Shown here: positions 19,810 through 23,490 of the stretch, piece after piece | Layout of the letters: each line of letters starts with the position of its first letter | Position numbering within the stretch: the first letter of the stretch is position 1 | Source of the DNA: Amycolatopsis sp. DSM 110486 | GTDB lineage: Bacteria; Actinomycetota; Actinomycetes; Mycobacteriales; Pseudonocardiaceae | Assembly (NCBI RefSeq): GCF_019468465.1 | Contig: NZ_CP080519.1 | Coordinates: 2,867,001 to 2,931,000, forward strand | DNA: 64,000 nt | Direction: 5' to 3' | Notes under the pieces: generated by a model | The model's input: only the letters and a program-made list of their open reading frames with translations | Database searches by the model: none | Told to the model about the DNA's origin: nothing | Made by a program: the position numbers and the translations under genes

Positions 19810-21465
19810 TCAGACCCGCTTCCTGTCGAAGATCGCTTTCTGGCCCGTACCGTAGCGGCGCAGCGCGCCTTCGGGACCAGACGCGTTAGGTCGGGTGAAG
19901 ATCCAGTTCTGCCACGCGGTGAGGCGGCCGAAGATCTTCGTTTCGATCGTTTCCGGGCCGACGAACCGGTGGTTCGCCTCCATCCCGGTGAGCGCGTCGG
20001 GGCTCAGCGAGGCGCGGCCCTCCAGCGCGATCCGGATCTCGTCCTCCCAGTCGAGGTCGTCCGGCGCGTCGGTGACCAGGCCCAGCTCCACGGTCTCGGC
20101 CGGCGTCAGCGCGTGGTCGCGCTCGCGCACGAGCCACGCGAGGTGGTCGTCGTCGCCGTAGAACCGCGACTGCAGGCGGGTGAGGCCGTTGCCCATGGGG
20201 AACGGGCCGAAGTTGGCTTCCGACAAGGTGATCGACGCGCGTTCTTCACTGTCTTCGTCGTCGATGGGCGGACCGTCCAGGATGTACTGGCGGTCGGCGG
20301 CCAGCGCGAGCTCCAGCAGCACGCCGGCGAAGCAGCTGCCCGGCTCGATGAGCGCGATGAGCGTGCGGCTGGTGACGTCGAGACGCTTCAGCGTGCGCTT
20401 GTAGTAGTGCAGGATTTCGTTGCTCAGCCAGTCTTTCGCGCCGAGCACCTGCTGCTCGTGGGCCAAGACGCCGGCCGGGTCGCCTTCGGTGCGCAGGACC
20501 CAGGTGCCGAGCTCGGTTTCGTTGGCGCGCAAGCGGAGGATCGCGTCGTCGAGCTCGCGGGTGAGGCGCAGCAGCCAGCCGTCGGCACCCTCGGCGTGCA
20601 GGTCACCGGGTTCGCCCTCGGGGCCGCGGACGGTGATCGTCGCGAGCGAGGCGGGGCGGTCGAAGGTGATGTCGACAAAGCGGTACTTGATGCCGTCGTC
20701 GGTGACCTCCGGGTTCAGCGGCGTGAGCCACACGCCCTGGTCACCCGGCAGGCGCTCGGACTCGGCAGCCAGCTCTCGAGCCCTGGCCAGCACGGATTCG
20801 CGGAACCCCACGCGGGGCACGAGCTCGTCGACCAGCCGCCAGTCGACGGCGGTCTTGCCCTTCACACCGTCCGAGCGCGTGGCGAACACGTCGGCGAGGT
20901 CGCGGCGCACCCGGCGCTTGTCGACCACGCGCGTGAGGCCGCCGGTGCCGGGCAGCACGCCGAGCAGCGGCACCTCGGGCAGCGCGACCGTCGACGAGTT
21001 GTCGTCCACGAGCAGGATCTTCTCGCACGCGAGCGCGATCTCGTAGCCGCCACCCGCGCAGCTCCCGTTGACCGCGGCCAGGTACCGCTGACCGGAGAAC
21101 TCGGTGGCGTCCTCGATGCCGTTGCGGGTTTCGTTGGTGAACTTGCAGAAGTTCACCTTCCACTCGTGCGCCGACGACGCGAGCATCCGGATGTTGGCCC
21201 CGGCACAGAACACCTTGTCCTTGGCACTCGTCACGATCACGGCTTTGACGCCGGGGTGCTCGAAGCGCAGGCGCTGCGTGGCGTCGTAGAACTCGATGTC
21301 CACGCCGAGGTCGTAGGAGTTCAGCTTCAGCTCGTAGCCCGGCACGAGGCCGCCTTGCTCGTCGACGTCCATCTCGAGCCAGGCGACCTCGCCGTCGACG
21401 TCGAGCTTCCAGTGCCGGTAGGTGTCCGGGTGGCGCTCGAACGTCACAGTCGTGGTGGTGGTCAC
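19810..21465 (-). CDS. boxC: Benzoyl-CoA-dihydrodiol lyase (2,3-epoxybenzoyl-CoA dihydrolase)
   Basis: This 551-residue crotonase-fold enzyme opens the ring of the epoxide to 3,4-dehydroadipyl-CoA semialdehyde and formate. The crotonase core is KDKVFCAGANIRMLASS with the oxyanion loop NGSCAGGGYEIALACE and LPEVPLLGVLPGTGGLTRV. The second half (SLATITVRGPEGEPGDL to FGPFPMGNGLTRLQSRF) is specific to BoxC. It is the first gene of the operon. The start is GTG at 21465. AGGGAG directly abuts it, and a promoter ends just upstream, so the mRNA is probably leaderless. Confidence 0.95.
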   Translation of the reverse strand: MTTTTTVTFERHPDTYRHWKLDVDGEVAWLEMDVDEQGGLVPGYELKLNSYDLGVDIEFYDATQRLRFEHPGVKAVIVTSAKDKVFCAGANIRMLASSAHEWKVNFCKFTNETRNGIEDATEFSGQRYLAAVNGSCAGGGYEIALACEKILLVDDNSSTVALPEVPLLGVLPGTGGLTRVVDKRRVRRDLADVFATRSDGVKGKTAVDWRLVDELVPRVGFRESVLARARELAAESERLPGDQGVWLTPLNPEVTDDGIKYRFVDITFDRPASLATITVRGPEGEPGDLHAEGADGWLLRLTRELDDAILRLRANETELGTWVLRTEGDPAGVLAHEQQVLGAKDWLSNEILHYYKRTLKRLDVTSRTLIALIEPGSCFAGVLLELALAADRQYILDGPPIDDEDSEERASITLSEANFGPFPMGNGLTRLQSRFYGDDDHLAWLVRERDHALTPAETVELGLVTDAPDDLDWEDEIRIALEGRASLSPDALTGMEANHRFVGPETIETKIFGRLTAWQNWIFTRPNASGPEGALRRYGTGQKAIFDRKRV

Positions 21466-21471
21466 TCCCTG

Positions 21472-21512
21472 ATTGTCTACATATTGCTGACTAGCGTCAA
21501 TGTTGTGTAGAC
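21472..21512 (-). promoter_or_regulatory. box operon promoter overlapped by a GTCTACA dyad
   Basis: On the minus strand, TTGACG (21495-21500) and GACAAT (21472-21477) are spaced by 17 bases and would start transcription at or next to the boxC GTG. Arms GTCTACA (21475-21481) and TGTAGAC (21506-21512) are perfect inverted repeats flanking these elements. That is the geometry of a repressor site. The right arm lies inside the 3' end of the upstream membrane-protein gene. Confidence 0.55.
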
Positions 21513-21925
21513 GCTTGATCGGCGATACTCACCCGGTTGAGCTGCGCCGCCGCCCAGGACACGAAGAGCCACAACGCTATCGCGGCCGCCGTGTCGGTGA
21601 AGATCGTCGCGAACCAGAACGCCGGGATCTGCGGCACGCCGACCAGGAAGTGACCCGCGCTGACCAGGCCACCCAGCGAGCAGACCAGCAGAAACCCCAA
21701 CGCCCGCCAGTACCGCCCGCGGACGTAGTAGCGGTAGCCGGCCAGCCCGAACCCCGTGAACAGCACCCACCCGAACGCGACGACGATCTGCGCCGCGAGC
21801 ACGGGGATCCCCGGGATCTGCGGGTAGTCCTGCGCGCGGATGACGTTGTGCGCGTAGTGGAACGTGGTCGTGAGCAGCGTGAACGCGAGGATCACGCGGA
21901 GTGCGGTGAGACCTCTGTCAGGCAT
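21497..21925 (-). CDS. Small multi-pass membrane protein
   Basis: This 142-residue protein has about four membrane helices: LTALRVILAFTLLTTTFHY, IPVLAAQIVVAFGWVLFTG, ALGFLLVCSLGGLVSAGHF and FATIFTDTAAAIALWLFVS. Start ATG at 21925 has AGGGGG nine bases upstream. The family is not recognised with certainty; it resembles small uncharacterised actinobacterial integral membrane proteins. Its 3' end overlaps the box promoter region. A dyad GCGAT-N7-ATCGC (21943-21959) lies just upstream and may be an operator. It does not share function clues with its neighbours. Confidence 0.75.
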   Translation of the reverse strand: MPDRGLTALRVILAFTLLTTTFHYAHNVIRAQDYPQIPGIPVLAAQIVVAFGWVLFTGFGLAGYRYYVRGRYWRALGFLLVCSLGGLVSAGHFLVGVPQIPAFWFATIFTDTAAAIALWLFVSWAAAQLNRVSIADQASTQH

Positions 21926-21990
21926 AACCGATCGCCCCCTGTGCGATTTGATAGATCGCTCTAGCGAGAAGGGTAACGCCGGTCCGCCGC

Positions 21991-22893
21991 TCACACCAGA
22001 TCAATGCGGTGGTACTTCACCGGATACCCGGCCTTCGCGAACGCCGCCGCCATGGGTTTGTTCGTGACGTCCGTGGCGGCGACGATCGTCTCGGCGCCGT
22101 GCCCGACCAGCTCGTGCGTGGCCTCGACGAGCAGGTCGTAGGCGTAGTTATGGCCACGCTGCTCCGGCACGACACCGACGTACGCGACGATCGGGACCGT
22201 CGGGTTGCGAGCGGGAATGGTGAGGCCGACGAGGTCACCTTCGGGCGTGTACGCGAGGCGCCACCAGTCGCGCGGGCTCGGCAGCCGGCGCAGAAGGTCG
22301 AGGTCTTCCTGCGCCGCCGCGTCGAGGCCGTGCTCGGCGGTGGTGCGGCGGACATGCGCGTCGAGGCTGCCCTGGTGGACGCGGCGGAAGACCGCGAGGA
22401 TCTTGTCGTCTTGCGGCTCTGCCCGGAACTCGAGGCGACGGGGTCGTTCCGGGAGGCCGTCGGCGACGGTCCAGGTGTAGCGGTAGCGCTCGACGAGCAC
22501 CTCCATCCCCGCGGCTTCCGCGGCCTCGATGCGGGTTTCGACCTCGGGTTTGACGGCTGGGTCGTCACGCCAGCCGGGCGGGACGGTCAGGGAGTACTCG
22601 GCACGGAACGGCGCTTGGCGGAGGACTTCCACGCCGGCGTCAAAGTCGGTGAAGTCGAACCAGTCGAGGGCCAGGGGCGCTTCGTCGTTTTTGCTCGCCC
22701 ACCAGGCCGCGCGTGCCACGGGTTTGCCGTTTCGGGCGGCGATCCAGGTCCACTCGGGACGGTATTCGCCGTGTTGGGCCATTTCTTCGTAGTCCCGCCC
22801 GAGCAGGGCGCTGCCCACACACTGGGTTGCAGGGAGGTTGGTGAACAGGTGTTCCTCACCCGCGACGAGCGGGCGCACGACCAGATCGGTCAT
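21991..22893 (-). CDS. GNAT-family N-acetyltransferase
   Basis: This 300-residue protein has a C-terminal GNAT domain. VPIVAYVGVVPEQRGHNYAYDLLVEATHELV (about 225-256) contains the acetyl-CoA binding V-x-P-x-x-RG-x motif, and ETIVAATDVTNKPMAAAFAKAGYPV is the terminal GNAT strand-helix. The N-terminal 150 residues form a second, poorly conserved module, as in two-domain GNATs. The acceptor is unknown. ATG at 22893 has GGAAGGAA four bases upstream. That ribosome binding site is adjacent to a hairpin following an 18-codon leader ORF, which suggests translational attenuation. A MarR gene lies upstream on the same strand. Confidence 0.85.
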   Translation of the reverse strand: MTDLVVRPLVAGEEHLFTNLPATQCVGSALLGRDYEEMAQHGEYRPEWTWIAARNGKPVARAAWWASKNDEAPLALDWFDFTDFDAGVEVLRQAPFRAEYSLTVPPGWRDDPAVKPEVETRIEAAEAAGMEVLVERYRYTWTVADGLPERPRRLEFRAEPQDDKILAVFRRVHQGSLDAHVRRTTAEHGLDAAAQEDLDLLRRLPSPRDWWRLAYTPEGDLVGLTIPARNPTVPIVAYVGVVPEQRGHNYAYDLLVEATHELVGHGAETIVAATDVTNKPMAAAFAKAGYPVKYHRIDLV

Positions 22894-22904
22894 GAGATTC
22901 CTTC

Positions 22905-22923
22905 CGGGAGTTCCGCGCTCCCG
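22905..22923 (-). promoter_or_regulatory. Hairpin between leader ORF and GNAT gene
   Basis: CGGGAG (22905-22910) and CTCCCG (22918-22923) form a 6-bp stem with a 7-base loop, immediately after the leader ORF stop codon. On the mRNA its 3' arm directly abuts the GNAT ribosome binding site GGAAGGAA. It could mask that site unless a ribosome stalls upstream. Confidence 0.5.
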
Positions 22924-22980
22924 TCAGGCCCTCGGCACCCTCAGCCGGAGGTGGGAACGCGTGATCGAGTAGCCGAACAT
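22924..22980 (-). CDS. Putative 18-residue leader peptide with Arg-Leu-Arg motif
   Basis: ATG at 22980 is preceded by a near-perfect ribosome binding site (AAAGGAGGTG, eight bases upstream), stronger than that of any neighbouring gene. The peptide is MFGYSITRSHLRLRVPRA, followed by TGA at 22924-22926. The RLR followed by hydrophobic-Pro recalls the ErmDL leader (RLRFP), where R-x-R arrests macrolide-bound ribosomes. Hairpin 22905-22923 follows directly, then the GNAT start 30 bases after the stop. Seen: ORF, ribosome binding site, hairpin. Inferred: drug-sensing attenuation. Confidence 0.6.
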   Translation of the reverse strand: MFGYSITRSHLRLRVPRA

Positions 22981-23046
22981 GGCGTCCACCTCCTTTCCGT
23001 TCGTGAGGGTGCTGGGCGGTACTCAACCGGGCGGGGGCTGGGGTGG

Positions 23047-23490
23047 TCAACCGGTTTTCACCTCGGCGAGGCGCTCGCGCAGGCGGTGGAGCGTGCGCAG
23101 CGTGATCTCGAGGTCTTCGGGTGACAACCCGGCGGCCACGGCGTCGGCCCACCGGACACGGCGGGTCTCCAGTTCACGGAGAGCCTTCCGCGCCGCAGGG
23201 GTCAGGTGGAGCAGGGGCGCGCGGGCGTCAGTGGGGTTCGGCGCTCGGGTGAGCATTCCGTTGCGCAGCAAGCGGTTCACCGTTTCCTGCACGCTCTGCC
23301 GGCGCAGGCCCCGGCGGCGGGCGAGGTCGGCGGCCGTGGTGGGGCCGTCTTCGAGGAAGCCGAGGACCTGCCACTGGGCGGCAGTGAGGCCGGCCGGGGC
23401 GGTGAGGGCGTCGCCGGTGGTGAGGAGGGTGCCGTTGGTCAGGAAGACGTCGTTGACGAGCTGGGTGAGGCGCTGCGCCCGGTCGGTCAT
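23047..23490 (-). CDS. MarR-family transcriptional regulator
   Basis: This 147-residue MarR protein has helix-turn-helix TTAADLARRRGLRRQSVQETVNRLLRNGML (about 50-80), followed by the wing TRAPNPTDARAPLLHLTPAARKAL. The AQWQVLGFLEDGP segment is the usual MarR entry helix. Start ATG at 23490 was chosen because a longer open frame runs through the operator and the divergent gene. It is divergent from a small DUF1579-like gene, with the palindrome GACAGGCACCTGTC between them. It is followed at 66 bases by the leader ORF and GNAT gene on the same strand. Confidence 0.9.
   Translation of the reverse strand: MTDRAQRLTQLVNDVFLTNGTLLTTGDALTAPAGLTAAQWQVLGFLEDGPTTAADLARRRGLRRQSVQETVNRLLRNGMLTRAPNPTDARAPLLHLTPAARKALRELETRRVRWADAVAAGLSPEDLEITLRTLHRLRERLAEVKTG

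Follow-up and report, generated by a model that had tools for sequence, protein, structure and literature searches.

A candidate ribosome-mediated start-codon-arrest attenuator upstream of a tandem-GNAT acetyltransferase gene in Amycolatopsis

Analysis of the window, a 64,000-nucleotide stretch of the Amycolatopsis sp. DSM 110486 genome (11 Mb in two contigs), points to a ribosome-mediated translational attenuator upstream of a gene coding for a tandem-GNAT acetyltransferase, which would respond to ribosomes arrested on the start codon of a short leader open reading frame (ORF) and act in the response to ribosome-targeting antibiotics; we give this reading a probability of roughly 0.55. The segments of the element, their conservation, the competing helices, the rule for ribosome position in the GNAT-1 class of leaders and the promoter box are supported by comparison or by calculation. 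We further infer that the inducers are drugs holding ribosomes on start codons, e.g., tetracyclines, pleuromutilins, lincosamides, and streptogramin A, and that the GNAT confers protection from a drug acting on the ribosome. The kinds of regulation involved, namely, ribosome-mediated attenuation, start-codon-arrest upstream ORFs (uORFs), and WblC control, are known. If the reading is correct, the element would represent an undescribed RNA-based ribosome-stress regulon in Actinomycetes, its uncharacterized enzymes, with the query GNAT among them, would be candidate defenses against ribosome drugs, and the leader could provide a reporter for drugs blocking initiation or the first peptide bond.

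Organization of the leader and its target gene

The locus lies on the minus strand, where a promoter-like region is followed in order by the leader ORF, a hairpin after its stop codon, the Shine-Dalgarno sequence (SD) of the GNAT gene, and the GNAT gene itself. The leader ORF (57 nt, 22980..22924) reads MFGYSITRSHLRLRVPRA before its stop, is preceded by GGAAAGGAGGTGGACGCC and lies 30 nt upstream of the tandem-GNAT gene. Its strong SD, written GGAAAGGAGGTGG, has 10 contiguous matches to the SD reference that we used. The 6-bp hairpin CGGGAG/CTCCCG pairs 22923-22918 with 22910-22905 and ends at the GNAT SD. The features are as follows.

23045..23059, minus strand: putative WblC/WhiB7-type box plus -35, GAAAAC-CGG-TTGACC; box proper 23059-23054, -35 at 23050-23045 (sequence, GAAAWY rule, and scan)
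23021..23026, minus strand: probable -10, TTGAGT, 18 nt past the -35 (from the sequence)
23004..23012, minus strand: segment 0, GCACCCTCA, partner of segment 2' (covariation and centroid fold)
22985..22996, minus strand: segment 1, the leader SD AAAGGAGGTGGA, partner of segment 2 (SD match, pairing, and fold)
22924..22980, minus strand: leader ORF, 18 codons plus TGA (ORF and comparison)
22947..22961, minus strand: segment 2, CGCGTTCCCACCTCC, codons 7-12; 22961-22953 pairs with segment 3, and the remainder plus its overlap with segment 1 (SD/segment table and pairing counts)
22935..22943, minus strand: segment 2', TGAGGGTGC, partner of segment 0 (covariation)
22914..22922, minus strand: segment 3, GGGAGCGCG, partner of segment 2 or segment 4 (pairing counts)
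22905..22910, minus strand: segment 4, CTCCCG, adjoining the GNAT SD (pairing counts and fold)
22898..22904, minus strand: GNAT SD, GAAGGAA (sequence)
21991..22893, minus strand: tandem-GNAT acetyltransferase gene, 300 aa (Pfam PF00583, AlphaFold2 model, and fold matches)

The 136-nt leader stretch folds at -60.7 kcal/mol (z, -2.67), and 1 of 200 shuffles folded as well or better. A transcription terminator was considered and rejected, as the hairpin is followed by GAAGGAATCTC with no U-run.

Phyletic distribution of the leader

Searches for the GNAT covered 80 genomes of the genus, with matches in 53 at an E value of 0.001, 297 genomes of the family, with matches in 80, and 296 genomes of the class, with matches in 51 at an E value of 1e-20. 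Short ORFs with strong SDs recur upstream of the orthologues, with the leader peptide MITQPITRSHLAARVPAV in many members of the genus, MITTTIMRSLLAVRASRS and MVTRLFTCSHRTPRA elsewhere in the family, and MRSTPDPRSRPVTPACRV further off. A permissive SD-plus-ORF rule collected 99 leader rows, of which 22 were removed by hand for alignment and folding, leaving 77, and 11 of those 22 were left out of the phase and motif counts (n = 88). The removed rows comprise paralogues of 40% identity, odd leaders, and rows without the segments, so that the percentages apply to leader-bearing rows. Thinning the 77 rows for identity selected 46, of which three were omitted to give the alignment A1, and a covariance model, R1, was built from its 43 sequences.

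R1 matches 89 of 94 GNAT orthologue loci, a set that includes the 43 training rows (46 of the 51 others match, many of them close kin of training rows), and the remaining 5 lack the element. Since this holds and only 1 of the shuffles above folds as well, the layout exceeds what chance would give, and the ORF and hairpin that the initial annotation had placed before the GNAT gene are real, with 18 codons, a strong SD, and a hairpin adjoining the GNAT ribosome binding site. Among the named loci, R1 matches 24 of 35, with positives in Amycolatopsis, Umezawaea, Streptosporangium, Phytoactinopolyspora, a Hamadaea MAG, Kibdelosporangium, Actinosynnema, Micromonospora, and Streptomyces; of the 11 negatives, 2 are Streptomyces loci and the other 9 are relatives whose identity does not exceed 44%. 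At the paralogue loci (~40% identity), R1 matched 3 of 26 at an E value of 0.1, one of them weakly. Seven distant GNATs at this level of identity have upstream SDs and short ORFs of their own, differing in sequence, which are possibly other leader families. A search of Rfam with the region 22700-23200 returned no family at the gathering score and three chance-level matches. Neither Rfam nor searches of the open PMC literature, in which few subscription journals are represented, yielded a description of the leader, and the leader peptide strings retrieved no paper from that literature.

Competing helices conserved in the RNA

In A1, covariation is clear for the helix between segments 0 and 2' (0:2'), in which 84.0% of the cells are paired versus 72.4% in shuffles and 43 cells have two-sided changes versus 15.6, a value reached by 0 of 500 shuffles; these changes affect 7 of the 8 pairs, a number that 19 of 500 shuffles attain. 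The 2:3 helix, with a match length of 8-11 bp, is paired in 94.4% of the cells versus 92.8% and has 11 two-sided cells (1 of 500 shuffles), with two-sided changes in 2 of 9 pairs, and 1:2 is paired in 75.7% versus 72.9% (0 of 500). In 3:4, pairing is 87.3% versus 86.6% in shuffles (66 of 500) and covariation is not above shuffles; as its columns hardly vary, covariation says little about this helix. The shuffle counts overstate significance throughout because the sequences are related. When the partners were slid against each other, pairing reached at most 57, 73, 66, and 55% for 0:2', 2:3, 3:4, and 1:2, respectively. The 2:3 helix is an alternative both to 1:2, which contains the leader SD, and to 3:4, which bears on the GNAT SD.

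The element accordingly has the parts of a four-segment attenuator: a leader ORF with its own SD that is kept in relatives; mutually exclusive 1:2, 2:3, and 3:4 helices, with weak covariation for 3:4; and, by calculation, a GNAT SD closed by 3:4, at a mean opening cost of 6.2 kcal/mol in the free RNA (n = 77). The proposal of the initial annotation that the leader ORF is an attenuator of the GNAT gene agrees with the preservation of the alternative helices across the class. In the ermC type of attenuator, 1:2 and 3:4 form at rest and 2:3 forms on induction, the SD of the enzyme gene lies in the 3:4 hairpin, and the peptide fixes the stall in midleader. The present leader resembles it in opposing 1:2 and 3:4 to 2:3 among four segments and in having the SD of the controlled gene in 3:4; unlike it, segment 1 is the leader SD itself and the peptide is free to vary.

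Calculated response to ribosomes on the leader

We folded the 77 leaders with a ribosome placed on each codon, folding the downstream RNA alone and assuming a ribosome edge at +16. The free RNA has a probability of 0.02 for 2:3 and 0.89 for 3:4. With the ribosome at codon 1, these values become 0.71 and 0.24, at codon 2 they are 0.68 and 0.28, and at codon 3 they are 0.19 and 0.71; at later codons, 2:3 is near 0. The corresponding opening of the GNAT SD amounts to 2.5 kcal/mol for a ribosome on codons 1-2 and 1.0 for one on codon 3, and it is -0.9 to +0.3 over codons 4-12. Across codons 14-19, where the leader end and segment 3 come under the ribosome or its edge, it is 2.3-3.3, which equals or exceeds the value for codons 1-2. 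Breaking segment 2 lowers the opening at codons 1-2 to 0.35 kcal/mol, and the late opening stays at 1.9-2.9. A ribosome on codon 1 opens the SD more than one on codons 4-8 in 67 of the 77 GNAT-1 leaders, with the codon 1 effect amounting to only 0.8 kcal/mol under a softer mask in which the RNA on both sides may pair. In most rows, the 2:3 helix starts at +20 or +21, just past a start-codon ribosome. By calculation, then, the GNAT-1 class shows the response to a ribosome at codons 1-2 that start-codon arrest calls for, and this codon profile, together with the position of 2:3, makes the layout fit such arrest, with late opening as a rival.

On this basis, we propose that in the resting mRNA segment 1, with the leader SD and start, would pair with segment 2, segment 0 with segment 2', and segment 3 with segment 4, the last closing the GNAT SD. 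A ribosome arrested at the start codon of the leader would cover segment 1 and leave segment 2, from about +20, free to pair with segment 3, by which segment 4 would be released and the GNAT SD opened. The signal would be the position of the ribosome and not the sequence of the peptide. Counting against the model, the resting fold has the leader SD itself in a helix, and the loading of the first ribosome is not accounted for.

The late opening could instead reflect coupling to termination or a late arrest: with segment 3 and the paired end of the leader covered by a ribosome at the stop or the final leader codons, the GNAT SD would open upon any translation of the leader or any pausing toward its end. 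The calculated opening at codons 14-19 in the GNAT-1 set speaks for this, as does the stop codon, which precedes GGGAG by 0-5 nt in 76 of 88 leaders; however, in a few leaders the stop is 18-30 nt before segment 3, and both the 8- to 11-bp match between segments 2 and 3 and the fixed place of segment 2 are left unexplained. We regard this as unlikely, though by no means negligible. A plain reinitiation antenna that raises GNAT translation and senses nothing appears the least probable of the readings that we weighed: excerpts of PMC4833913 describe leader genes near start codons as common in Actinobacteria, but also an effect that peaks at a leader-gene gap of 10-11 bp, whereas here the gap is 30 nt and competing helices are conserved.

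Excerpts of two studies provide precedents for the preferred start-codon arrest. In the toiL uORF of the Escherichia coli topAI-yjhQ locus, arrest at the start codon by tetracycline or retapamulin, with ribosomes ending at +16 to +18, is described to open a hairpin over the next ribosome binding site, and other drugs act at later codons (PMC12121999, in part). The arrangement of a uORF with a hairpin over the next ribosome binding site, and the ribosome edge, are alike; unlike toiL, which concerns one E. coli gene pair, the present element has an alternative 2:3 helix and is found in Actinomycetes before several gene families. In the are5sc and tiaA uORFs of Streptomyces coelicolor, lincomycin, clindamycin, tiamulin, and pristinamycin IIA stall ribosomes at start codons, and a terminator/antiterminator controlling ABC-F genes is proposed (PMC12421871, in part). 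These too are actinobacterial uORFs with a start-codon stall of the kind that we propose, but in our case there is no U-run and the hairpin lies on the ribosome binding site.

Variation of the leader peptide

The leader is conserved as RNA and not as peptide: the hairpin and alternative helices are kept among relatives, whereas the peptide and its RLR codons are not. The initial annotation had explained the leader as an ErmDL-like nascent peptide in which R-L-R arrests macrolide-bound ribosomes. The query leader does carry an RLR-hydrophobic-P string (RLRVP) like that of ErmDL; unlike in ErmDL, the string is not conserved, with RLR present in 2 of 88 leaders, those of the query and one sister species. 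In favor of the annotation's view, some R/K-x-R/K triplet occurs in 20 of 88, mostly as R-S-R within segment 2. Comparison of 29 close relatives shows residue changes at codons 12, 13, 17, and 18, with codons 6, 9, 14, and 15 invariant. An ErmDL-type stall would presumably sit at codon 13 of the query leader. For this leader, the calculated cost of opening the GNAT SD is 6.5 kcal/mol in the free RNA, 3.5 with a ribosome at codon 1, 5.8 with one at codon 13, and 0.2 with one at codon 14 (0.2-0.9 across codons 14-17), so that a ribosome with its P site at codon 14 frees the SD but one at codon 13 does not. Because the RNA is kept and RLR is so rare, an attenuator is supported and an ErmDL-type macrolide peptide is not; we consider the latter very unlikely for the family, although such arrest could still hold in the two RLR-bearing species.

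Of the 88 GNAT-1 leaders, 82 have the core GCTCCC of segment 2 in phase 1, 5 have it in phase 0, and 1 has it in phase 2. Its GCTC is in phase 2 in most leaders of a second subfamily (see below), but in phase 1 in 10 of the 15 GNAT-2 leaders; these differences in phase count against an RLR arrest peptide. The distance of the core from the leader start takes values of 13, 19, 22, 25, 28, 31, 37, and 52 nt, and the retention of phase in the 82 rows across several such distances argues that the leader is translated. This bears on the alternative in which a protein or small molecule binds the RNA and translation of the leader is only incidental. That the conservation lies in the RNA would suit such an element, as would ATT or ATC in place of ATG or GTG in 23 of 24 leaders of the PrmC class (see below); the retained strong SD, the retained phase of segment 2, its place at the ribosome edge, and the lack of an Rfam match stand against it, and we judge it improbable. 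Residue 3 of the leader is A, S, or T in 66 of 88 GNAT-1 leaders and 66 of 74 in the second subfamily, which may reflect RNA pairing or drug context. Context-dependent arrest by phenicols or oxazolidinones was considered: despite this residue, 3:4 remains closed when the P site is at codon 4. Amino acid attenuation was also examined and rejected, as no run of a single codon is conserved.

Promoter

Excerpts of PMC7157823 give the WblC rule as GAAAWY placed 3 nt upstream of the -35, which the query promoter GAAAAC-CGG-TTGACC (23059..23045) satisfies, and reviews, in the portions available, tie the WblC/WhiB7 factor to translation drugs. Of 88 GNAT-1 upstream regions, 31 carry the pattern GAAAWY N2-4 TTG, versus 0.09 in shuffles, with the exact box absent from 57 of 88; the carriers are 30 of the 31 loci L002 to L032 plus L038. 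Elsewhere, it occurs in 8 of 30 hydrolase, 0 of 15 GNAT-2, 0 of 24 PrmC, and 0 of 5 monooxygenase regions. When 141 upstream regions are aligned on TAnnnT, the A/T fraction is 0.84-0.87 over positions -31 to -29, with values of 0.69 and 0.62 in the -35, and the PrmC class lacks the A/T peak. The box combined with the TAnnnT pattern had no match in the own genome, where the query -10 is TTGAGT. The promoter looks to be of the WblC/WhiB7 type, in which case ribosome-jamming drugs would raise transcription and translation together, and the earlier suggestion that the GNAT is a ribosome-stress gene is likely on account of this box. A tandem-GNAT gene, MAB_4324c, is reported as a direct WhiB7 target in excerpts of PMC7157823 and PMC10727445. 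The query shares with that regulon the promoter box, and MAB_4324 is the top Foldseek match of its product, albeit with only 18% identity in the structural alignment.

A second subfamily of leaders upstream of other genes

R1 found six places in the own genome and matches in 38 of 197 genomes of the class, and many of the weaker matches are a sister leader, a second subfamily, from 25 members of which we built the model R2. In the own genome, R2 has three matches (E values of 7e-33, 9e-30, and 1e-26) plus two weak ones; the sister leaders, at C1:159979-160122 (minus), C1:1557473-1557625 (plus), and C1:5246179-5246322 (plus), stand before two alpha/beta-hydrolases and one second GNAT. R2 matches occur in 18 of 396 genomes of the phylum and 108 of 121 Streptomyces-type genomes; from the latter, 40 R2 places were fetched out of a larger number of matches, and loci L188 to L215 are outside the counts. 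Five repeats were removed, five weak matches were taken as chance, two loci fall in no downstream class, and one gave no ORF. Among the matches read, the downstream genes code for at least 40 alpha/beta-hydrolases, at least 29 PrmC-related methylases (four more were assigned only from the leader and an off-frame reading), at least 16 members of a second GNAT family, at least 10 rifampin monooxygenases, and at least 3 patatins. Single members scanned matched NF033145 rifampin monooxygenase (846.8 bits; cutoff, 800), TIGR03704 for the PrmC-related protein (407 bits; cutoff, 248.8), Patatin (51.6; cutoff, 27.7), and GNAT (48.0; cutoff, 20.7). Against Pfam, the leader-bearing hydrolases stayed below the cutoff (19.5 against 27 for one and nothing for the other), and the name alpha/beta-hydrolase is therefore tentative, being based on that weak match and plasmid annotation. 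Patatin-like phospholipase genes stand behind the sister leader at three loci.

Peptides of this subfamily resemble MNAVSMWVLPLPVTVGR, VNTVTHGCSLNPSRSGG, and ITAVSGRVLSSRDRAVHPA, and in 65 of 74 leaders, the distance between the start and GCTC is 22 or 23 nt (0-based). The 24 leaders of the PrmC class have ATT (19), ATC (4), or ATG (1) where other classes have ATG or GTG; the ATT or ATC, behind a strong SD, may serve for initiation or mark a start codon that has been lost. The first 25-40 residues of five monooxygenases compared resemble the N terminus of the leader-bearing hydrolases, and a similar N terminus is found in four further monooxygenases, as if the monooxygenases had captured the leader when their genes fused with the 5' end of a hydrolase gene. 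On plasmids, two queries found the leader in 41 and 36 of 72,556 records (overlapping sets), and it stands before genes predicted as rox on the Streptomyces plasmids NZ_CP109481.1 (67.09% identity by rgi) and NZ_CP108366.1.

No equilibrium switch is seen in the leaders of the hydrolase, GNAT-2, and monooxygenase classes, for which the probability of 3:4 is 0.77-1.0 at all ribosome positions listed. In PrmC leaders, the SD opens by 1.7 kcal/mol at codon 1, yet 2:3 rises only from 0.19 to 0.25. Over the subfamily, codon 1 exceeds codons 4-8 in 33 of 72 rows (the 74 less two). In the alignment A2 of these leaders, 2:3 is paired in 96.0% of the cells, not above shuffles, 0:2' in 86.9% (27 of 500 shuffles), and 1:2 in 89.3% (4 of 500). 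These leaders either switch during transcription or work in some other way. We tentatively suggest, as a possibility somewhat short of even, that a peptide-indifferent start-codon-arrest RNA attenuator has spread over two GNAT families, alpha/beta-hydrolases, rifampin monooxygenases, PrmC-related methylases, and patatins as a portable, mostly WblC-linked antibiotic-response cassette of Actinomycetes and plasmids, with the monooxygenases gaining it by the hydrolase fusion and the AUU/AUC starts of the PrmC leaders tuning the sensing of initiation. If so, rox-type rifampin monooxygenases would in some lineages be linked to translation sensing.

The GNAT protein and its gene neighborhood

The GNAT protein matches Pfam PF00583, and its AlphaFold2 model has a mean pLDDT of 94.9. 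Against the NCBIfam resistance acetyltransferases, its best score was 14.9 bits, missing the curated cutoff of 124; PADLOC gave no match, and the best hit in a PDB sequence search had an E value of 0.24. The closest named relatives, 88 and 87% identical, are both from Amycolatopsis. A MarR-type gene upstream (23047-23490, minus strand), whose end is overlapped by the promoter box, was considered and rejected as a functional partner, being present in only 2 of 30 close loci, all of which have the two genes that follow the GNAT gene (19810-21994, minus strand).
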